A DNA stretch of 64,000 nt from Acidobacteriota bacterium. GTDB lineage: Bacteria > Acidobacteriota > Terriglobia > Acidiferrales > UBA7541. Made by a program: the position numbers and the translations under genes. The DNA lies in contig JAJYLB010000010.1 of the NCBI GenBank assembly GCA_021788095.1, forward strand, positions 38,348 through 102,347. The letters run 5' to 3'. Below are positions 44,958-64,000 of the stretch, one piece after another. The notes beneath the pieces were generated by a model that had not been told where the DNA came from, ran no database searches, and was given only the letters and a program-made list of their open reading frames with translations. Positions within the stretch are counted from its first letter, which is position 1. Every line of letters begins with the position of its first letter.

Positions 44958-45081
44958 CTAGAAGCTATTTCACAACCTTCCGTCGGGTCCCTTCAGGGGC
45001 TGGAGCCCCGATTTTTGGCGACTTTTTTGTCGGAGCTGAAGCTCCGACCCCCCCAATCGCGGGTTTTGAAATGGCTTCTAG
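44958..45081. repeat. intergenic composite palindromic element with flanking 20-bp imperfect inverted repeat
   Basis: CTAGAAGCTATTTCACAACC (44958-44977) vs inverted GGTTTTGAAATGGCTTCTAG (45062-45081), 18/20; encloses CTTCAGGGGCTGGAGCCCC and GTCGGAGCTGAAGCTCCGAC. Confidence 0.7.
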
Positions 45082-45280
45082 CAGGCTAGTCCCCATCGGC
45101 CCTCTGCGCCTCTGGGGTGTGCTCGTTGCGGACGTTCCTGAACACGGGAGTCTCAACCCATGACGCTCGTCTTGGCCCAAGCCGTGCCACGGGCCACGAG
45201 TCACGGGCCACTGCTCTTCTCTGTGGGTTGGCACTTGAAAAACCACCGATTCCTGAAGGCGTTCACACGCCTGCCCGCGA

Positions 45281-46630: not shown

Positions 46631-46760
46631 CGAGCCGATACCTCGGCCGAACGTTGCGTTCACCGCCCGTAACTCGAAGGAAAATGAGCACGCGACGCGG
46701 AGCCGGCTTGGGCGGAGAGGGTGCTAAAGTCGTTCGGCTTGAATTCTGAGGCCGAGCCGA

Positions 46761-48365
46761 ATGACCGTTTCGCGAGAGCCCGGTTGGATTCGTGGACTCG
46801 CCCTCCTGTCGGGCTTTTTGTACCTGTTGCTGGCGATGTTCCTGCCGCCCAAGCGATTCGACGAGGGCATTGTCGTCGTTGGGGCAGAGAGGATCCTGCA
46901 TGGCGCGATTCCCTATCGCGACTTCGCCGCCTACTACGCTCCCGGCCAGTTTTATACGCTGGCCGCGGTCTTTCACTTTTTCGGCTCATTCCTTCTCGCG
47001 GAAAGGATTTGGGAGACGGTCGTCCGATTCTCCCTATGCGTTGTGGTGTTCCTCGTCGCACGGGCGCTGGTCTCGGGCAGGTGGGCGTATCTCCCGTATT
47101 GCGTTGTCGTGCTCTTCTTCGGCTGGTGCTGGTTTTTCGGTTACCCGGTAGTTCCAGCGATGCTTTGCGCTCTCGTCGGCGTCCTGCTGCTCGTTCGCGG
47201 CTGGCCCGAAAACCGGCCGAGGAATTTGCTCCTTGCAGGAATCGCCATGGGGCTTTCCGCCTTCTATCGACAGGATGTGGGCGCTTACGCGATCGCAAGC
47301 GGCGTGGTCGCCCTAGCAATGATGGGATCCGGAAGAGCGGATGAAGCGGCCCGCTGGCGCGCCAGCTTGGTTGCCGGCTTGCGGCCCCTCGCGTGGTTTG
47401 CGCTCGGAGCCTGCCTCGCTCTCGCGCCGGCGGCCGCGTACTTCGTTCGGAAACTATCGATAGCTGCACTTTACGCGGATTTCATGGTCCTGCCGCGCCT
47501 CCAACTGAGGTATCGCCATTTGCCCCTCCCGTCGGTGATTCCGACGTGGAGGGAATTGGTCGCGGGCATGGGTCTGGCGGACAACTGGTTCCTGTTCTAC
47601 GTGCCTATCGGGGTGTTCCTTGCCACCGCGGCCAAGCTCGTGGGTCGGAGTTTCCGGCCAACGGGAGAGGGGCGGGCTGGGCGGGGGCGGTTTGCCGCGC
47701 TGCTTCTGACGCTGTTTGGCCTACTGCTCGTAATCACCGCGATCACGCGCGTGGACATCCTTCACTGCCTGGCGCCCACAATCCCCGCTGCGATTCTCTT
47801 CGCCGCTCTATTAGCGGAATGGCCTCGCCGGCGCGCTTGGAGCGTGCAGGCCCTGGCCATCTGCCTAGTGGTGCTCTCGGTGCCCTACGTCCTGAGCCCG
47901 GTTTACCGCTGGGGGCTGGGGCTGAAACTCTACCCGCCCTGGAGCGGCACCTCTTCGCTGCCGCGCGCTCGCTTCTCCCATGTCCCCGCCGATCAGGAGG
48001 CTGCGGCCGAGTACGTCCGTTCGCACGCGCCGACGGGGAGCCCCATCTTCGTGGCCAATAGCCAGAACCAGCGCGTAGCGGGCGACGATGCGATGTTTTA
48101 CTTCCTTGCGGATCGGCCGGTTGGAACCCGTTATGAGGAGTTCGAGCCGGGCGTGGTTACGAAGCCCTCCGTGCAGAGGGAGATCGTGGGGGAACTCGAA
48201 CGGAACCACGTCGACTGGGTGGTCTTGTATTCCGGATTCGAGGCCTCGGCTCGAGGACTGCCAGGGCCACGGGAGGGCTCGACTGTTCTCGACGACTTCC
48301 TCGCGGGCCACTACGAGGGCGTCGCCCGGTTCGGGCGCTACTCGATACTGCGGAAACGTCCATAG
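46761..48365 (+). CDS. GT39-like membrane glycosyltransferase
   Basis: 534 aa polytopic; FDEGIVVVGAERILHGAIPYRDFAAYYAPGQFYTLA, matching the N-terminal GT-C catalytic loop style. Confidence 0.72.
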   Translation: MTVSREPGWIRGLALLSGFLYLLLAMFLPPKRFDEGIVVVGAERILHGAIPYRDFAAYYAPGQFYTLAAVFHFFGSFLLAERIWETVVRFSLCVVVFLVARALVSGRWAYLPYCVVVLFFGWCWFFGYPVVPAMLCALVGVLLLVRGWPENRPRNLLLAGIAMGLSAFYRQDVGAYAIASGVVALAMMGSGRADEAARWRASLVAGLRPLAWFALGACLALAPAAAYFVRKLSIAALYADFMVLPRLQLRYRHLPLPSVIPTWRELVAGMGLADNWFLFYVPIGVFLATAAKLVGRSFRPTGEGRAGRGRFAALLLTLFGLLLVITAITRVDILHCLAPTIPAAILFAALLAEWPRRRAWSVQALAICLVVLSVPYVLSPVYRWGLGLKLYPPWSGTSSLPRARFSHVPADQEAAAEYVRSHAPTGSPIFVANSQNQRVAGDDAMFYFLADRPVGTRYEEFEPGVVTKPSVQREIVGELERNHVDWVVLYSGFEASARGLPGPREGSTVLDDFLAGHYEGVARFGRYSILRKRP

Positions 48366-48397: not shown

Positions 48398-48424
48398 GAC
48401 AGGTCACAGGTTACAGGGGACAGG
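48398..48424. repeat. GACAGGTCACAGGTTACAGGGGACAGG dispersed repeat unit in a larger repetitive intergenic tract
   Basis: reverse complement occurs at 56871-56897 inside a CDS with 25/27 identity. Confidence 0.75.
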
Positions 48425-54964: not shown

Positions 54965-55588
54965 TCACCGGCAATCGCAGCTCCCCTCCCTGCCGGCGCC
55001 CTTGAAGTAGACGAATTCCAGGCAGTCGATCCCGAAGAGCTTCTCGACGAAGTGCTCGAAGACGACGGTTCGGAAGAATTCGGAGAAGATGCTCCGCCAC
55101 TCCTCGATAGGCCGGCAGAACCGACCCCGGTCCGCGCGAGCCATGAGGCGTGGTGGTCCCCAACGCTCGGGCATCACGACCTCGATGCAGTGGATACAGC
55201 CCTCCTCGCTAAGAAGGGGCGCCAAGCGCGAAAGCACGCGGCGCGTCTGGAGCAGGTCAAGATGGTGCAGCAAGCTGTTGACGAGAATGAAGTCGAAGCG
55301 CGCGCCCTGCGGGACCGTGAAAGCCGTGGCATCCGCCGCAATGAAATCGCGGCGGTACCGTCGCCGTGCCTCGGCAATATACCGGGGATTGATGTCCACG
55401 CCCAGGTAGTCGGCGTGGGCGAAATAGGCGGTGTTCGTTCCTGGTCCGCACCCCACATCGAGGACGCGGCGGACAGTCCTGGGGTCGGTCTGGGCGAAGA
55501 TCCGGGGGAGCTTCTGGTCCCCGAAGGGGGCCTGGGAGAGCCGGTAGAGTACGGGATGTTCTAGAACTCGCTCGAGCAGACGATTCAT
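54965..55588 (-). CDS. class I SAM-dependent methyltransferase
   Basis: VRRVLDVGCGPGTNTAYFAHADYLGVDINPRYIAEAR; ATGA overlap with upstream gene. Confidence 0.9.
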   Translation of the reverse strand: MNRLLERVLEHPVLYRLSQAPFGDQKLPRIFAQTDPRTVRRVLDVGCGPGTNTAYFAHADYLGVDINPRYIAEARRRYRRDFIAADATAFTVPQGARFDFILVNSLLHHLDLLQTRRVLSRLAPLLSEEGCIHCIEVVMPERWGPPRLMARADRGRFCRPIEEWRSIFSEFFRTVVFEHFVEKLFGIDCLEFVYFKGAGREGSCDCR

Positions 55589-57579
55589 CTCCAGCGCACC
55601 TCGAAGCGGCCGACGGTCCGGGAGGCGGGGAACCGCGTCCTAAGGGCAGCCCGCAGGGCTGGCAGCACGGGTTCCGAGTCGACGGGGTCGTCGTTGAGAA
55701 CGACGACCGTTACCCCGTGATCGGCGAGGGTTTGCAGGACTCGCAGGGTTCGCGGCCAGGGATAATCGAAATCTGCGCTGGTGAAGTCCCAGAAGGATCG
55801 CATTGGATCGCGCCCGCCCGAGAGGAAGTACAGCTCGGGGCAATCCGGAGTGCAGTAGGTGTACCGTCCGCGGGCATGCTCCCGGACCAGTGGCACGAGC
55901 CGGTCATACTCGCGCGCGTCGGATGCAGGCACGAGAAGGCCCCCGGAACGGCTGAGCCCTAGCGGGCGGAGAACGGGGCGCTGGCCGGGAGCGGAGTGCA
56001 TGAGCTCGAGGTAGGCCGGCGTGCCCAACCACAACGCACAGATCAAATAGAAACCCAGGAGAGAGCCAACGGCCACGCGATCGAGCCGCGGGTATGCGGA
56101 CAGCAGCGCGACGATTGCGAGGAGCACGAGGGGCTCGCAATAGCAGAAATACAGGGGAAGCGAAAAGGGAAATTGGATCAAGGCGCAGCAAACCCCAGCG
56201 GCGACGACCAGGAAGATCCTCTGCCGCGCGACGATCGCAGCAGGACCGAGCCGCCGAAGCCCAAACGCCAGAGCGATTCCGACCACGGGAACGAGGAGGG
56301 GAAGCGATTCGCCTAGTAAATAGGAGGCCGGAATTTTCTTCCAGGAGATCACGAGCAGGCCCCCCAGCAGGAGAGGCGTCCCGTACCGAGCGAAGCGCTT
56401 TGCTGTGGGTGCCGCCTCTCCGGCCACGCGGAGGACGAGGGCGCCCGGGACTAAGCCAAGGAAGAGGCCGGTTGGCACTGGATTTGTCGCGGCCCAGAGG
56501 AACCGGCCCGGGGGGCTCAAAAACATTCCCCCCGCCCACGCGTGTAGGGCGTTCTGTTTGAAGTACCATGCGAGAAAGGGGATGATGGGTATCGAGAATC
56601 CGGCAAGGAACGGCAGACCCATCCCGAATAGTCGACGAAAGCGGCCGCCAGAGACGGGCGAGGGCCCGCGCCACAGGGTCCAGAGCAAGATCGCCACCAA
56701 GCAGGCGCTCGGTAAAGCGGAGTAGACGTAGTTGTCGAGCGAGGGTCGCTGCGAGACGAGGTCGGCCAGCGCGGCAAGGAAGAGCAGCAGGCCCGAGGAT
56801 GTGAACAGGCGGTAGGCGGGTCCTCCGCGCGGCCTCTGCGCCTCCCCGGTGCCTCGCTCGTTCGCCGTCGCCTGTCCCCTGTGGCCTGTGACCTGTCTCT
56901 CCGCCCTCCGTGCCTCCGTGGTGAATCCTTCCATCGCAAGCGACTGCTCGCGGAAAATCAGAAACAGAAGGGCGGCCGCGGCGAAATACAAGCCGGTAAT
57001 CTTGACCAGGAACGACAGGCCGCCGCATATTCCGGCGATCCAAAGCCAGCGGCTTTCGTCCCCCTCGATGTACCGCAGCAACGCCAGCACACCCCACGTC
57101 GCGAAGAAGAGGTTGTACCAGGAAGGCATCGCTTCGGGATAGTTCGGTACGCTCCAGGCTACCGCCAGCAAGACGATTGCGCCCGCCGCAAGCGGGCGAA
57201 CGAACCGGCGAGCTACGAGGTATGCGGAAGGAACCCAACCGAGGAAGAACAGGAACAGGGGAATCCGCATGCTGAAGAGATTTTCACCGAAAAGCCTGAA
57301 GGCGAGGGCGTTGAGATAATCCAGACCCCCCGTATACCCCTCGAAGAAGTCCCGAGCCGGCACCTGGCCTCTCAGCACACGGGCTGCCATGTCACCGAGT
57401 GTGCCCGCGTCCGAGGGCCACCAGCCTTGCCTTAGGTGCAGTCCGACATAGACCGCGCAGATCGCCCAAACGGCGGCTAACAGCGCCCAACCCGACCGCG
57501 TCTCATGGAATGGCGCCGTGGGCATCCCGGATGGAGTTACGGGAGCACCCTCGGTGCTGAGGCTCGGAAGCGTTGCCAT
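55585..57579 (-). CDS. GT39-like membrane glycosyltransferase (paralogue P1) with in-frame repeat-derived insert
   Basis: polytopic; GYTGGLDYLNALAFRLFGENLFSMRIPLFLFFLGWVPSAYLVARRFVRPLAAGAIVLLAVAWSVPNYPEAMPSWYNLFFATWGVLALLRYIE; C-term VGRFEVRWR. Confidence 0.82.
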   Translation of the reverse strand: MATLPSLSTEGAPVTPSGMPTAPFHETRSGWALLAAVWAICAVYVGLHLRQGWWPSDAGTLGDMAARVLRGQVPARDFFEGYTGGLDYLNALAFRLFGENLFSMRIPLFLFFLGWVPSAYLVARRFVRPLAAGAIVLLAVAWSVPNYPEAMPSWYNLFFATWGVLALLRYIEGDESRWLWIAGICGGLSFLVKITGLYFAAAALLFLIFREQSLAMEGFTTEARRAERQVTGHRGQATANERGTGEAQRPRGGPAYRLFTSSGLLLFLAALADLVSQRPSLDNYVYSALPSACLVAILLWTLWRGPSPVSGGRFRRLFGMGLPFLAGFSIPIIPFLAWYFKQNALHAWAGGMFLSPPGRFLWAATNPVPTGLFLGLVPGALVLRVAGEAAPTAKRFARYGTPLLLGGLLVISWKKIPASYLLGESLPLLVPVVGIALAFGLRRLGPAAIVARQRIFLVVAAGVCCALIQFPFSLPLYFCYCEPLVLLAIVALLSAYPRLDRVAVGSLLGFYLICALWLGTPAYLELMHSAPGQRPVLRPLGLSRSGGLLVPASDAREYDRLVPLVREHARGRYTYCTPDCPELYFLSGGRDPMRSFWDFTSADFDYPWPRTLRVLQTLADHGVTVVVLNDDPVDSEPVLPALRAALRTRFPASRTVGRFEVRWR
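56869..56928 (-). repeat. repeat-derived in-frame insert in P1
   Basis: encodes GFTTEARRAERQVTGHRGQA; contains CTCCGTGCCTCCGTGGTGAATCC and CCTGTCCCCTGTGGCCTGTGACCTGTC (25/27 to 48398-48424 inverted). Confidence 0.8.
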
Positions 57580-57602
57580 CACGGTCTCCACCTCACTTCG
57601 AA
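57536..57602. repeat. 67-bp direct repeat, copy 1 (P2/P1 gene junction)
   Basis: GTTACGGGAGCACCCTCGGTGCTGAGGCTCGGAAGCGTTGCCATCACGGTCTCCACCTCACTTCGAA identical to 59539-59605. Confidence 0.95.
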
Positions 57603-59582
57603 GCGCCCCACGACCTCGGAGTGGGGAAAGCGCTCGTCCAACGCGCGCCGCAAGCCCGCCGGGATGGGCCCGGACTCGATGAGGCGCCGCCAGTGGTTCA
57701 GCACGACGACGCTTACGGCGTGTGCATCCAGCTCCTCGAGAATTCTCTCCGCCCGCGAAACGGGAGACATGAAGTCCGGATCAAGGAAGTCCCATATCGT
57801 CTTAGTCGGATTCGATTTTCCGGTAAGGAAGTAAACCTCCGGGCCGTCAGGAGCGACGTAAATGTAGGGTCCGCGAGCGTGCTCGAGCACGACTGGCACA
57901 AGCTTCTCGTACTGGTCGGCATACGAGGCCTTGACGAGCAGGCCTCCGCCTCGCGGCAATCGCAGCGTGCGCATCTCGACCGGCGAGCCGACAACGAGGT
58001 GCATGGTATCGTAATAGCCAGGTGTCCGCAGCCACACGGCGAAGACGAGATAGAAGGCGGCCAGCCATCCCAGCGCCACCCGATTGAGACCTCGCTCCAT
58101 CCTGAAGAGCGCCAGAAGGGCTAAAAACACCAGCGGCGCGATGTAGCAAAAGTACAGCGCCATCCCTATCGGGAATTGGGTGAGCGAACACACGCCCGCC
58201 GCGGCTGCTACGAGAAGGACGGCCGACCGCGCAGTTTCCGAAGCCGTATCCCGCCGCCAGAAGCGAAAAAGGGCGTAGAGGAGCGCGAGAGGAGCGACGA
58301 GAGGCATGGCGTTGCCGACGAGCTGCCGGACCACGAGGTTCCACCGGCATGCGGCCAGCAGGACGGCAAGGAGGACCGGAACGCCGTAGCGGCCAGCGCG
58401 ACCCGCGCCTCCGGCGGGCCGACGGGCTGCAGCAACCGCGAGCACAACACCCGCTGGTACCAGCCCGACTGCAGCCCACAGGGTCGCAGGCTCGACGGAA
58501 TCCCAATAGATGTGCCGCGAAGCTATGCCGAAGGTGGCGCGGAACCAGGCGCCCAGCGCACCCTCCTCGAACAGCCAGGCCGCGAAGATGGCGGGGGGCA
58601 GCAGCACGCCGCCAACGAATGGCGAGGCCATCGAGAATAACCGCTTGAACCGCGGCCAGCTTTGGCCACTTGGCGTAACCCATACTTCGCGCAGAACGAT
58701 GCCGAAAAGACAAAGGGGCGGCAGGAGGAAGTCCACGGCGTTGGTGGGCGTAGGCCAGCTCAAAATCAGGCCAAAGACGCCAGCCAGGAACAAAATCAGG
58801 CCTGCGGACGCGAATAGCTGGTAGGCCAAGCCCCCGCCCTGCCTCCGCGCCTCCGGGGTGAGTTTTTTTAGGTCCGGGGTCCCAGCCCCTTGCTCGGTGC
58901 TCTCCGTGGATCTCCGCGCCTCCGTGGTGAGTCCTTCGCCCGCCGAAAGTTCTCGATAGACGAAAAAGAGCAAGACTGCAACAACGAAGTAGAGTGCGGT
59001 GCTCTTAGCCAGAAAAGACAGCCCGCCGCAGATCCCGGCAATCCAAAGCCAGCGCTGTTTCTCCGACTCCACGTACCGCACCAGGGCCAGCACACCCCAC
59101 GTCGCAAAAAACAGGTTGTACCAGGATGGCATCGCCTCCGGATAGTTCGGCACGCTCCATGCCACCGCCAGCAAAGTGACCGCGCCCGATGCCAGCGGCC
59201 TCGCAAACCGCCGCGCGATGAGATAGACGGAAGGAACCCAGCCGAGGAAAAAGAGGTAGAGCGGAATGCGCAAGCTGAAGAGGTTCTCACCAAACAGCCG
59301 GAACGCCAGGGCGTTCAGGTAGGTCAGCCCGCCGGTGTACGCGTCTGTAAAATCCTTGAAGGGAACCTGACCGTGGAAGGTGCGATCGGCCAGCGCGGCG
59401 AGCGTGCCCGAATCGCTTGGAGTCCATACCTGCCGTAGGTGCGCCCCCAGGTAAACCGCGCCGAGGGCCCAAACCGCACCGAGCACAAGCCAGCCGGTCC
59501 GTGTCTCATGGAATTGGGTCCTTTGCGCCCAGGATGGTGTTACGGGAGCACCCTCGGTGCTGAGGCTCGGAAGCGTTGCCAT
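57579..59582 (-). CDS. GT39-like membrane glycosyltransferase (paralogue P2) with in-frame repeat-derived insert
   Basis: same architecture as P1 (DAYTGGLTYLNALAFRLFGENLFSLRIPLYLFFLGWVPSVYLIARRFARPLASGAVTLLAVAWSVPNYPEAMPSWYNLFFATWGVLALVRYVE); stop/start TGATG overlap with P1. Confidence 0.82.
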   Translation of the reverse strand: MATLPSLSTEGAPVTPSWAQRTQFHETRTGWLVLGAVWALGAVYLGAHLRQVWTPSDSGTLAALADRTFHGQVPFKDFTDAYTGGLTYLNALAFRLFGENLFSLRIPLYLFFLGWVPSVYLIARRFARPLASGAVTLLAVAWSVPNYPEAMPSWYNLFFATWGVLALVRYVESEKQRWLWIAGICGGLSFLAKSTALYFVVAVLLFFVYRELSAGEGLTTEARRSTESTEQGAGTPDLKKLTPEARRQGGGLAYQLFASAGLILFLAGVFGLILSWPTPTNAVDFLLPPLCLFGIVLREVWVTPSGQSWPRFKRLFSMASPFVGGVLLPPAIFAAWLFEEGALGAWFRATFGIASRHIYWDSVEPATLWAAVGLVPAGVVLAVAAARRPAGGAGRAGRYGVPVLLAVLLAACRWNLVVRQLVGNAMPLVAPLALLYALFRFWRRDTASETARSAVLLVAAAAGVCSLTQFPIGMALYFCYIAPLVFLALLALFRMERGLNRVALGWLAAFYLVFAVWLRTPGYYDTMHLVVGSPVEMRTLRLPRGGGLLVKASYADQYEKLVPVVLEHARGPYIYVAPDGPEVYFLTGKSNPTKTIWDFLDPDFMSPVSRAERILEELDAHAVSVVVLNHWRRLIESGPIPAGLRRALDERFPHSEVVGRFEVRWRP
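58838..58934 (-). repeat. repeat-derived in-frame insert in P2
   Basis: encodes GLTTEARRSTESTEQGAGTPDLKKLTPEARRQGG; CTCCGCGCCTCCGTGGTGAGTCC at 58912-58934 identical to 63649-63671. Confidence 0.8.
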
Positions 59583-59605
59583 CACGGTCTCCACCTCACT
59601 TCGAA
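59539..59605. repeat. 67-bp direct repeat, copy 2
   Basis: identical to 57536-57602. Confidence 0.95.
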
Positions 59606-59700
59606 CTTGCCGATAGTCGCCGAATCCGGATAGCGGGCGTCCAGAAGGGCGCGTAGATGGCCCAAACCACCGCGAGCACGAACCAGCCGGCGGCATTCAT
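59582..59700 (-). pseudogene. deletion remnant of a fourth P-family paralogue
   Basis: reverse strand encodes MNAAGWFVLAVVWAIY (N-terminal helix of family) directly followed, in another frame, by LLDARYPDSATIGKFEVRWRP* (C-terminus of family, cf. LLDARYPDSAGVGNFEVRWRP of P3). Confidence 0.75.
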
Positions 59701-60065
59701 AACGGCGAGCGAGCCAACGGGCCGCTCGGAATCCTCCGAAAAGCGTAACTACGCTAGCATACGGCGGATGGCGGCCGATTCCCTTCTTGGGGCTGGCGTG
59801 CGCGCCATTCAAGAGAGGCGGAAAGGCAGATCCCTCGCGCCAATCGTGGCGGGCCGGGGACTGCTCGTGGGGCGGCCACGCCGCGGGGGCCCGGTGGCGC
59901 CAGCACTCACGGCAACCGTTTGGCCCACGACCATCCGAGGTAGGTACGCAGGAAGAAGTACTCGTTTATTGGCCGATTGTCGGAAAGGGCAGGGACGGAG
60001 AGGTAAGGGCGATCAGGTCCTGGACGGAGATTTCCCTGGAGAGGAAGCGTGAATCGCTCGCGCTC

Positions 60066-61736
60066 TCAGCGACCGGGCGCGGCCTCGTACCGGGAGAGCT
60101 TCTCGGTGGCGCCCTCGGGGATCACCAGCCAAACGTCCCGATTTCTGAAGCGGCGGATCAACTCACGGTTCTTTTCCGGCCCCATGTCCCACGCCCAGAC
60201 GGTCCGCTCGCGGTCGATATCGCCGCTCTCGTTGTACACCCACAAACCGACGTCCGGCCCACCCTGGGCGTAGTGCAGCAAAACCAGGTGCTTGCCCGAG
60301 TGGGCATCGAGTTCCTGGTTGATGCGCGTGTAGTCCGCGACTCTGTCGACGGCGTTGAGCGCTGTGGGGGGCCACGTTCTCGCGAAGCGGATGCCGAGCG
60401 ACGCCGCACCCGTGCGCGCAACAAGCATGAGAAGACAAACCACGGGCGTTGCCCGCGCGACCATCCTTCCCACCCGCCGCCGGTGCGGGGCCCACGCCCG
60501 CACGCGCCGCAGGGCCGCGATAACCAGCGCGAGGATCAAGCCCGTCATGGGAGCAGCGTAGTGGTCGAAGTAGAAAACCTCGACCGCGAGCCCGGCCAGC
60601 GAAACGGCCGTCGCGACGATCAGAAAGTGGAGTTTCGGGTCGCACCGCGACCAATCGGAGCCGTGCGGCAGGAGGGCGACCGCAAGAAGGAGCGGCGGGG
60701 TCAGCGCCCATCCAAGGTAAAACATCCAAAGATAGACGAGCCGCAGGGTTTCCATTGCCAGCGCTCCCAGAACCGTCCGGCTCGCCAAGTAAACTCCCAT
60801 CTCGTTGTGCAAGTGAAAATCCCTAAGGGCCGGCTGGTCGTACGCGGGCGTCGGCCGTGGCGATTGCCACAGGAAATAGGGGGCAACGGCGGAATGGTCT
60901 CGGTGGATCTTCTGCGGCATTTGGACGGGACTGCCCGTCACTCGCCAGAAGTAGAATCCCGTGCACGTCGCCCCCAACAGCACCACCAGCGTCAACGGTG
61001 CGATCACGCGCCCCATGGCCCGGCTCAGCTCCTCCCCCCGTTTCCGGAACAGCCAGGCAAAGAGGGCGAAGGCGACGGGCACGCTCAAGACCAAGCCCTC
61101 ATACGGACGGCTGTTGGCCAGGACCACCAAGCCCAATCCCATCCACATGGCGTCGCGAGGCCGCTCGGCTCGGATAATCCTCGGCAGCGCGCCCAAAATC
61201 AGCGCGCCTCCCGTGGCAGCTACCGCCCCGCCCCAGTAGCTATTGGCCCAATAGCTGAAGACTCCGAGCCGCATTGCTGCGATCATCCCGCCCAGAAACG
61301 CCCACCCCGGAGAAAACCATCCTTGCAGCATCCATACGATCGCCGCGCACATGAGGCCTACGCCGGCGAGCACCCCGGCGAAGGCAAGCCCTGTGGTCAC
61401 CTTCCCCGCCGCCAGGAGAAGTCCCTGCGCAGGCGGATACATGGACATGAAGGTCGGCGTCATCAGCACGTGAAGGGTTTGGAAGTGCCGCCACATCGGA
61501 GGGGTAGGGTTGGTCAAGCGGCCACGCGCGAACGTGTCGGCGGCTAGGAGGTAGCTGAATTCATCGGCGATAAAGGGATGAGGGATGGGCAGAATGGGCA
61601 AGACGGCCAGCCGCGCCGCGACTGCTGCCAGGCCAGCCACCAGAACGGCCAAACCCTTTCGGCGAGCCAAGCACGTCAGCCTCCGTTCCAGAAGGGCAAA
61701 CCACCTCGCGCCAAGGCGGGGAAACCACCAGGCCAA
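60066..61736 (-). CDS. GT39-like membrane glycosyltransferase, paralogue of 39704-41500 (start uncertain)
   Basis: 556 aa; [66 protein letters not shown]...[33 protein letters not shown]. Confidence 0.8.
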   Translation of the reverse strand: MAWWFPRLGARWFALLERRLTCLARRKGLAVLVAGLAAVAARLAVLPILPIPHPFIADEFSYLLAADTFARGRLTNPTPPMWRHFQTLHVLMTPTFMSMYPPAQGLLLAAGKVTTGLAFAGVLAGVGLMCAAIVWMLQGWFSPGWAFLGGMIAAMRLGVFSYWANSYWGGAVAATGGALILGALPRIIRAERPRDAMWMGLGLVVLANSRPYEGLVLSVPVAFALFAWLFRKRGEELSRAMGRVIAPLTLVVLLGATCTGFYFWRVTGSPVQMPQKIHRDHSAVAPYFLWQSPRPTPAYDQPALRDFHLHNEMGVYLASRTVLGALAMETLRLVYLWMFYLGWALTPPLLLAVALLPHGSDWSRCDPKLHFLIVATAVSLAGLAVEVFYFDHYAAPMTGLILALVIAALRRVRAWAPHRRRVGRMVARATPVVCLLMLVARTGAASLGIRFARTWPPTALNAVDRVADYTRINQELDAHSGKHLVLLHYAQGGPDVGLWVYNESGDIDRERTVWAWDMGPEKNRELIRRFRNRDVWLVIPEGATEKLSRYEAAPGR

Positions 61737-61946
61737 AGCCAGGGAAACCAGGACCAGCCCGAGTTCAGTCCGCGCTAGGATGGTTCAGACGACTCCCCGG
61801 TCTCGCGCAGGGAACGGCTGGATGAGCCCTGCCGGGTTCCCCATTTTTTTTGATCCTTGGCCAACCGGCAGCATACGCCCGGTCCCCTCTGCACGCAACA
61901 GATACTCGGTCGCCTCGATCAATCTTGGCGCGGGGAAGCATAGCCT

Positions 61947-64000
61947 TCACGGTCTCCACCTCACTTCGAAGTTGCCGACGCCTGCCGAATCCGGATAGCG
62001 GGCGTCGAGGAGGGCCCGGAGTCCGGGCTGGAGCTTTCCCGAAAGCGTAGAATCACCCGGGCCGAGGACAACGGCGTTGACGCCGTGGTTCTCGAGTGCC
62101 TGCAGGATGCGGCGGTCGCGAGCTGCGGGAACCAAAAAATCGGAGTCGAGAAGATCGGAAATCGTTCGCGTAGGATTTTTCAGGTGCGCGAGGAAATAGG
62201 CGGCGGGGACGTCGGGCGTCGCGTAGAGGTAGGAGCCACGGGCATGGGCGCGAGCGAGGGCAACTACGCGACGGTACTCTTCGACCACCGGCACCGAGCC
62301 GCGGATGCCGCCGGTGCGCGCCAGATCGATCGCTTCGACCCGAATCGGCTGGCGCGCTGGGGTCTGGGTACTGAGGTAGAAACCGGGAGTGTGTAGCCAC
62401 ACAGCGAACAGAAGATAAAAGGTCAGGAGCGAGCCGAGGGCCACCGGATCGAGACGGCTGCCGCGCCTCAGGGGGTGAAGCCCCTCGTTTTGGGCCGGCC
62501 CTACGGCACGGCTTAAGCCGTGCCCTACAACGACCGGGACGCCGCCAGCGGTCAGGAGAGCGACGACGGCCAAAATCACCAGCGGAGCTACGTACTCGAA
62601 GTAGAGCCCCGAGGAAAATGGGAATTGGATCAAACCGCAGGCCACCGCGGCGCAGACGAGCAGAAACGTCATCTGGCGACGGGAGCGATCGGCCGTACCA
62701 ATCCGGGCAGGCACAAGGCCTGCCCCTACGGGCGCCGGCGGGGAGAGCCGGGATGAAAAAGGCGCACACAGGCCTGCCCCTACAGGAGCCATCAGGAGGG
62801 GGCGGCGGAGGGCGAAGGGTGCCGCAAGCGCCAGAACCGGAACTAGTAACGGCAGCGAGAAGGCGAAGAAGGAATACACCGACAGGCTCTTCCAGGACTC
62901 GAAAAGCGAGGGCGCGAGGAGCAAGGGAGCGCCATAGCGCACGATCCGTCGAACGCTTGCGCTCCGATCCAGAGCCAGCAGCAGTATTACAGCCGCCGGC
63001 ACGAGTCCGGCGAGGCCCATCACCGAGATGGGGTCATAGGCCGACCAACGGACGCGTGTGGCCGGCCGGATGAAGACTCCGTCGATGCACGCGCCTAGGG
63101 CCCCGTGCGCGGCAAACCACGCTGCGAACAAGACAATCGGAACGGCCGCGCCGGCGAGGAACGGCACGAGCATGGCGAAGAGTTTCCGAAAGCGTGCGCC
63201 AGCGCGGGTCGGCGAAGGCTGCCCCCAGATTCGCCACAGGAGAAACGCTGCCAGGATTCCGAGGGGAAGAACGAACTGAAAGTACTCGCCGAGCGTCGGC
63301 CGCTGGGAGACCAGGTCGGTTAGCGCAGCGAGAAAGAGGACGAGACCCAGGGTGACGAACAGGCGGTAGGACAGCCCGACGTGTCGAGAAGGAGGCTGGG
63401 CAGGCACAAGGCCTGCCCCTACAGCCTCTTTGGGGGCACGGGGCGGTGGTTGTAAGGGCGCAGCGCCTGCGCCCTCCGTCGTCCCCTGTAAGGGCGACCT
63501 TTGTGGTTGTTCGTCCGGGCTCCGCGCTCTCTGCGCCTCTACCGTGTTTGCTTCAGGGGCCGAGGCCCCCATTCCTTGCCCGCTCATGTCGGAGCTTAAG
63601 CTCCGACCCCCGAAAGCCTCGGCTCGCCCGCCTGGCGTGCTCTGCGGCCTCCGCGCCTCCGTGGTGAGTCCGGCAATGGATTGTTCGCGGAAGATCAGAA
63701 AAAGCAGGCCCGCCACAACGAAGTACAACCCGGAGATCTTCATGAGGAACGAGAGCCCGCCGCACAGGCCCGCGACCCACAGCCAGCGGCTTCTCTCCGT
63801 CTCGACGTAGCGGATGAGCGCCAAGACGCCCCACGTAGCGAAGAAGAGGTTGTACCAGGAGGGCATCGCTTCCGGATAGTTCGGCACGCTCCATGCCACC
63901 GCCAGCAGCGTCACCGCGCCCGCGGCCAGCGGGCGAACGAACCGACGTGCGACGAAAAAGACGGAAGGAACCCAACCGAGGAAGAAAAGATAGAGCGGAA
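61947..64000 (-). CDS. GT39-like membrane glycosyltransferase (paralogue P3), truncated by window end, with three in-frame repeat-derived inserts
   Basis: ORF 61947..63914 continues upstream to window edge (LYLFFLGWVPSVFFVARRFVRPLAAGAVTLLAVAWSVPNYPEAMPSWYNLFFATWGVLAL); C-term VGNFEVRWRP. Confidence 0.82.
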   Translation of the reverse strand, partial: PLYLFFLGWVPSVFFVARRFVRPLAAGAVTLLAVAWSVPNYPEAMPSWYNLFFATWGVLALIRYVETERSRWLWVAGLCGGLSFLMKISGLYFVVAGLLFLIFREQSIAGLTTEARRPQSTPGGRAEAFGGRSLSSDMSGQGMGASAPEANTVEAQRARSPDEQPQRSPLQGTTEGAGAAPLQPPPRAPKEAVGAGLVPAQPPSRHVGLSYRLFVTLGLVLFLAALTDLVSQRPTLGEYFQFVLPLGILAAFLLWRIWGQPSPTRAGARFRKLFAMLVPFLAGAAVPIVLFAAWFAAHGALGACIDGVFIRPATRVRWSAYDPISVMGLAGLVPAAVILLLALDRSASVRRIVRYGAPLLLAPSLFESWKSLSVYSFFAFSLPLLVPVLALAAPFALRRPLLMAPVGAGLCAPFSSRLSPPAPVGAGLVPARIGTADRSRRQMTFLLVCAAVACGLIQFPFSSGLYFEYVAPLVILAVVALLTAGGVPVVVGHGLSRAVGPAQNEGLHPLRRGSRLDPVALGSLLTFYLLFAVWLHTPGFYLSTQTPARQPIRVEAIDLARTGGIRGSVPVVEEYRRVVALARAHARGSYLYATPDVPAAYFLAHLKNPTRTISDLLDSDFLVPAARDRRILQALENHGVNAVVLGPGDSTLSGKLQPGLRALLDARYPDSAGVGNFEVRWRP
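62465..62530 (-). repeat. palindromic insert within P3 (loop 3)
   Basis: CAGGGGGTGAAGCCCCT and perfect 20-bp palindrome GGCACGGCTTAAGCCGTGCC (62505-62524); absent from P1 and P2. Confidence 0.8.
62705..62790 (-). repeat. GTAGGGGCAGGCCTTGTGCCTGCCC insert within P3 (loop 2), tandem full and partial copy
   Basis: GGGCAGGCACAAGGCCTGCCCCTAC 62705-62729 (identical at 63398-63422); partial copy CACAGGCCTGCCCCTAC about 62767-62783; encodes VGAGLVPA/VGAGLCA. Confidence 0.85.
63398..63671 (-). repeat. large composite repeat-derived in-frame insert within P3 (loop 1)
   Basis: contains GGGCAGGCACAAGGCCTGCCCCTAC, GGGCGCAGCGCCTGCGCCC, CAGGGGCCGAGGCCCC, GTCGGAGCTTAAGCTCCGAC (perfect palindrome 63588-63607) and CTCCGCGCCTCCGTGGTGAGTCC. 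Confidence 0.85.

Follow-up and report, generated by a model that had tools for sequence, protein, structure and literature searches.

How do short dispersed DNA repeats come to lie in frame within the same loop of several paralogous membrane proteins, and do the segments that they encode serve those proteins? The question is raised by a 64,000-nucleotide stretch of DNA (the window) that forms the end of contig C50 in a 4.24-Mb MAG of an uncultured Acidobacteriota bacterium, a single MAG assembly in which the contig break falls inside one of the genes concerned (P3). A preliminary description of the window reported three GT39-like paralogues, P1 to P3, in which dispersed repeats make up in-frame inserts at a single loop, and compared them with the palindromic elements of Rickettsia.

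Glycosyltransferase genes and their loop lengths

P1, P2, and P3 are open frames on one strand, each with a match to PMT_2 (PF13231; Table 1), and the nearest named relatives carrying this protein family are Acidobacteria MAGs. The end of C50 overlaps contig C91 exactly over 127 bp, and across this junction the gene order is P4 - P3 - 556-aa membrane protein - P2 - P1, where P4, on C91, is a fourth affected paralogue. The number of affected genes rises from three to four. The 556-aa protein has no confident Pfam family, and our search for the repeat patterns gave no match in its gene. An AF2 model of P2 was built from 13 sequences (a single-sequence model, pLDDT 42, was set aside). A fold search with this model gave five matches with E<=0.001, including ArnT (twice), the C-mannosyltransferase DPY19, and an oligosaccharyltransferase chain; GT-C enzymes match best, ArnT leading, with TM-scores of only 0.33 to 0.42. 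The PMT_2 domain and these low-scoring fold matches mark P1 to P3 as GT-C (PMT_2/ArnT-like) membrane glycosyltransferases, with which P4 forms a tandem set of paralogues, and the genes beside P1 to P3 read as a surface-polysaccharide cluster.

Table 1. Genes and inserts of the glycosyltransferase array, with positions in the window.
Feature	Position	Strand	Details
P1, GT-C (PMT_2, ArnT-like) membrane glycosyltransferase, TM6/7 loop insert	55585..57579	-	PF13231 E 3.2e-11; 54% identity to P2
P1 TM6/7 insert	56828..56928	-	E1-left 56897-56928; heptamer-like ACAGGnn array 56856-56896; E1-right 56828-56851
P2, GT-C paralogue, TM6/7 loop insert	57579..59582	-	PF13231 E 2.8e-11; AF2 pLDDT 80, insert ~50
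P2 TM6/7 insert	58837..58934	-	E1-left 58903-58934; E1-right 58837-58860
556-aa membrane protein gene between P2 and P3	60066..61736	-	
P3, GT-C paralogue truncated by contig end, inserts in three loops	61947..64000	-	N-terminus on contig C91
P3 TM14/15 insert	62460..62530	-	H core 62465-62530, cmsearch 79.6 bits
P3 TM12/13 insert	62700..62800	-	full E2 62705-62729 and one partial E2 copy
P3 TM6/7 insert	63391..63671	-	E1-left 63649-63671; H core 63550-63613; E1-right ~63520-63546; GTAG-REP E2 63398-63422

We compared loop lengths in an alignment with 13 insert-free homologues (four copies from G002, two from G004, two from Gemmatimonadota, and five further family members). The lengths are nearly fixed in all 13, including the multi-copy arrays of G002 and G004, and these relatives carry the empty sites. 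The TM6/7 segment is 36 to 40 aa long in 12 of them and 50 aa in the other, compared with 67 aa in P1, 65 in P2, 128 in P3, and 80 in P4. The TM4/5 segment has 14 aa in every insert-free homologue and 35 in P4; TM12/13 has 41 to 51 aa, with 78 in P3 and 60 in P4; and TM14/15 has 35 aa in every insert-free homologue, with 63 in P3 and 38 in P4. The excess at TM6/7 (about 27 aa in P1, 25 in P2, and 88 in P3) is smaller than the 35 to 40 aa and roughly 100 aa given in the preliminary description. Its single shared loop is also only part of the picture: TM6/7 is hit in P1 to P3 as described, but there are four insertion loops in all, with P3 carrying inserts in TM6/7, TM12/13, and TM14/15, and P4 also in TM4/5 and TM12/13.

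The frames remain open through at least eight insert segments in P1 to P4, with no stops inside the inserts, and codon bias is kept on both flanks of most of them, as judged by a codon-usage score that is rough because it was trained on nine window genes. The host genes are under purifying selection, with dN/dS of about 0.3. In the P2 model the insert sits between two long helices, in agreement with the earlier placement between hydrophobic helices, and is modeled as disordered. Charge alternation along the consensus assigns each of the four insertion sites to the K/R-rich side, opposite K/R-poor loops (K+R sums of the four insertion-point loops are 3.0, 3.8, 3.6, and 1.3), and, together with the helix count, predicts that all four lie in cytoplasmic loops. 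The active site of GT-C enzymes is on the outer side of the membrane, and the insertion loops would accordingly be predicted to lie opposite it.

Repeat families within the inserts

The inserts draw on three or more families of dispersed repeats, which we call E1, E2, and H, and each affected gene has a different mixture of them. Status as genic or intergenic was scored on copies sampled around matches. E1 (GGAYTCACCACGGAGGCRCGGAG) opens the TM6/7 insert of P1, P2, and P3, where it encodes the G(F/L)TTEARR start; over the 23-nt stretch GGACTCACCACGGAGGCGCGGAG P2 and P3 are identical, as had been noted, and P1 differs at two positions. Six matches to E1 with three or fewer mismatches are present in the window, where 0.63 are expected, and five of the six are in P1 to P3. 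Genome-wide there are 13 copies with no more than one mismatch, compared with none for a reversed control and zero or one in the relatives searched. The exact 18-mer has a patchy distribution, occurring in 21 of 297 Acidobacteriota genomes with a maximum of 33 copies in one, and in several of these genomes E1 arms form inverted pairs that make long hairpins, although E1 is not palindromic by itself. The only clearly genic copies among the 13 are those in P1 to P3, and in P3 the coding signal is weak to one side of the repeat. That E1 recurs at the DNA level, mostly outside genes, and that homologues in relatives lack the insert are both contrary to the possibility that TTEARR is simply conserved protein sequence. 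No conserved target sequence is visible to the left of E1 in P1 to P3, and the literature searched on heptamer repeats and on dispersed repeats in Acidobacteria yielded nothing specific to E1.

The inserts had been thought to diverge completely after their common start. We found, however, a second, degenerate E1 in the same orientation and frame in every TM6/7 insert of P1 to P3 (encoding GTGEAQR, LTPEARR, and NTVEAQR), at the insert end in P1 and P2 and within the insert in P3. A composite similar to the P1 insert (76% identity) is present at C41:50181-50275, outside any open frame of at least 60 aa. P4 has no E1.

E2 (GTAGGGGCAGGCCTTGTGCCTGCCC) has the structure GTAG-GGGCAGGC-CTTGT-GCCTGCCC, with GTAG at one end followed by a short perfect stem, as in the definition of GTAG-tagged REPs (Di Nocera et al. 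2013, PMC3733652). The genome has 35 copies with three or fewer mismatches (none for the reversed control), and 12 relatives have between zero and two. It is dispersed and mostly intergenic, with most sampled copies lacking a two-sided coding signal; genic copies are those in P3 and P4, where E2 lies in both the TM6/7 and TM12/13 loops, in four protein-kinase-family genes at one site, and in one linker between two protein regions.

H is the two-hairpin core of an element of about 124 bp that has inverted ends (CTAGAAGCTRTTGCAAAACC) in intact copies (e.g., L150 and L153). Its terminal inverted repeats and short noncoding body are those of a MITE, the stem of the first hairpin occurs in two covarying versions, and one copy of 124 nt folds along its entire length (z, -7.6); matches to the ends number 139, versus 4 in a control. 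There are at least 150 copies in this genome and 9 to 64 in eight relatives. Only 4 of 74 sampled copies have a two-sided coding signal or lie in P3: two in P3, one in a frame adjoining P4 (L042:2980-5052), and one that is ambiguous (L099). The two cores in P3, one in TM6/7 (with a coding signal weak on one side) and one in TM14/15, are both without MITE ends. No autonomous mover was identified for either E1 or H, and no parent transposon was found for H.

Some candidates were set aside. The best other matches to the P4 TM4/5 insert carry two or three mismatches, and it was not counted as a repeat of an abundant family. ORFs that span repeats at L112, L113, L098, L105, and L111 were rejected as genic insertions, having either no two-sided coding signal or a repeat upstream of the likely start.

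Origin of the inserts

The mutual identity of P1, P2, and P3/P4 is 49 to 54%, the same distance as to insert-free homologues of other species. dS among P1 to P3 is 1.4 to 1.5, whereas E1 has only zero to two differences over 23 nt (91 to 100% identity), and E1 must therefore be either younger than the P1-P3 split or homogenized; simple inheritance by duplication is weakened accordingly. Conversion of large tracts is not seen either, the DNA flanking the TM6/7 loop being only 53 to 72% identical among P1 to P3, so that any conversion tract at E1 would be very short, and for this element the data single out neither conversion nor independent insertion. Elsewhere the array is locally homogenized. 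The insert shared by P3 and P4 includes 56 identical nt against a gene-wide pS of 0.47, and the starts of P1 and P2 share 67 identical nt (57566-57640 versus 59569-59643) spanning the stop of the preceding frame; these long tracts show that recombination occurs within the array.

We consider it likely that mobile repeats entered the GT-C array, that in-frame insertions in predicted cytoplasmic loops were tolerated, and that these were partly spread by recombination. E1 hairpin arms, E2, and H cores would hop or be copied into the array, and insertions would be lost wherever they shift the frame, add stops, or fall in transmembrane helices or on the catalytic, periplasmic side. Those falling in frame in short, predicted cytoplasmic loops would be tolerated and translated as disordered linkers, and recombination probably carried the P3/P4 insert, at the least, from one paralogue to another, and perhaps E1 as well, which would account for the same loop being hit repeatedly. 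Known processes, tolerance of in-frame repeats in permissive cytoplasmic loops plus partial conversion, suffice to explain the data, and the inserts are probably tolerated clutter rather than new function.

An alternative is that one E1 composite inserted in the ancestor of P1 to P4, after separation from the related species, and was inherited by duplication. Monophyly of P1 to P4 is not rejected (AU p, 0.17 to 0.18), and the [E1 ... E1] architecture, orientation, and frame are common to the inserts; nonetheless, we regard such an origin as unlikely, given the contrast between host dS and E1 identity, the lack of E1 in P4, and a best tree that, albeit with weak support, intermixes P1 to P4 with the insert-free G002 and G004 copies. 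The shared position, orientation, and frame of E1 in P1 to P3 could also reflect a site-specific or target-preferring element that hits this codon position repeatedly, without selection and conversion being involved; if about 12 E1 places were spread uniformly, about 0.001 would be expected in three 40-codon loops, and there are three. Such a hotspot appears quite unlikely, in that the inserts occupy four different loops and come from several unrelated repeat families, no conserved target precedes E1, and conversion tracts are present in the array. As to whether the array is simply decaying, or the repeats have been stitched in by misassembly, misassembly is known to arise at repeats and the MAG has a contig break inside P3, but the open frames, low dN/dS, two-sided codon bias, and gene-specific mixtures of elements make both extremely unlikely.

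The remaining question is whether the inserts do anything. Repeats could have been recruited to the cytoplasmic loop such that changes in length and charge alter partner binding or regulation, yielding different glycans, and it is true that the insert at the shared loop differs among the four diverged paralogues and that E1 is read in one frame (the charged TTEARR) in all copies. This adaptive diversification, foreshadowed by the hypervariable linker of the preliminary description, is very unlikely: loop length is near-constant in the 13 other homologues, even in the G002 and G004 arrays, the P2 insert is modeled as disordered and predicted to be cytoplasmic, opposite the active side, no recognized domain is contributed by the inserts among the Pfam matches of P1 to P3, there is no sign of diversifying selection on them, and the same REP, E2, is also found inside kinases. 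A stronger form, in which the cytoplasmic loops repeatedly receive repeats, by landing and by conversion, and turn them into new functional linkers (e.g., for docking or regulation) that differentiate the paralogues, has a very slim chance of being correct. With repeats mobilized by transposition and tolerated in the array, as we prefer, the locus is a compact natural experiment on selfish repeats becoming protein, with eight or more insert segments, drawn from several families and spread over four paralogues, and with clear empty sites in relatives. It makes directly testable which loops of a protein will accept mobile repeats and whether conversion spreads them. It also cautions against taking peptides like TTEARR or VGAGLVPA in MAG proteins for domains, since they can be repeats that have been translated.

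Relation to known repeats and other occurrences

The seven-base period of the P1 ACAGGnn array and its setting among small repeats are like those of the very small mobile and tandem heptamer repeats of cyanobacteria, but phylum and sequence differ and we claim no membership. The likeness to Rickettsia palindromic elements (RPE) seen earlier holds in that these, too, insert in frame into proteins, being palindromic and having functional hosts; unlike RPE-4 and RPE-6, which carry a CGTC tag, E1, E2, and H have none, and E1 is not a palindrome. H resembles MITEs and REPINs in its terminal inverted ends, length, high copy number, and lack of coding capacity, except that the P3 copies are cores only.

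Precedents exist for REPs inside genes, for several insertions into a single gene, and for insertions at a shared site: GTAG- and CGTC-tagged REPs within genes code for 20 to 30 aa, clusters of them for 43 to 82 aa, double insertions in one gene occur, and REPs lie at about the same recB site in two Xanthomonas species (Di Nocera et al. 2013, PMC3733652). E2, with its GTAG tag and palindromic stem, is of this kind. What differs here is that several unrelated families, including the non-REP E1 and MITE cores, share one loop of several old paralogues, and that further loops are hit, predicted to be on one membrane side. The density of inserts, this mixing of families, and the predicted one-sided placement are new.

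The four Ser/Thr protein-kinase-family genes with E2 (L101:4211-7072; L108:3656-6442, minus strand; L100:3574-6396; and L100:6186-6947, a fragment) all have it in frame at one shared position, which lies upstream of the HRDLKP motif (...GVGATLVVAPAQETRAGARPAPT...). In L079:652-2556, a single open frame covers two protein regions that appear to differ, with E2 in the low-complexity linker that joins them. Two PF01797 genes are present in the genome, one at a contig end and the other flanked by a GTAG palindrome different from E2; at L095:6378-7016 a Y1/RAYT-like transposase gene has such a different palindrome (GTAGCACAGGC...) on its downstream side. The H-bearing frame that adjoins P4 encodes a 691-aa multi-helix membrane protein with no Pfam match, and its H core is read in frame within a loop that hydrophobic segments flank. 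At 44990-45119 of the window, at a distance from the GT-C genes, an H core adjoins an E1-like copy in a small repeat island. A weak PMT_2 gene (46743-48362) is followed directly downstream by a ACAGGTCACAGG / ACAGGGGACAGG array (48399-48424).
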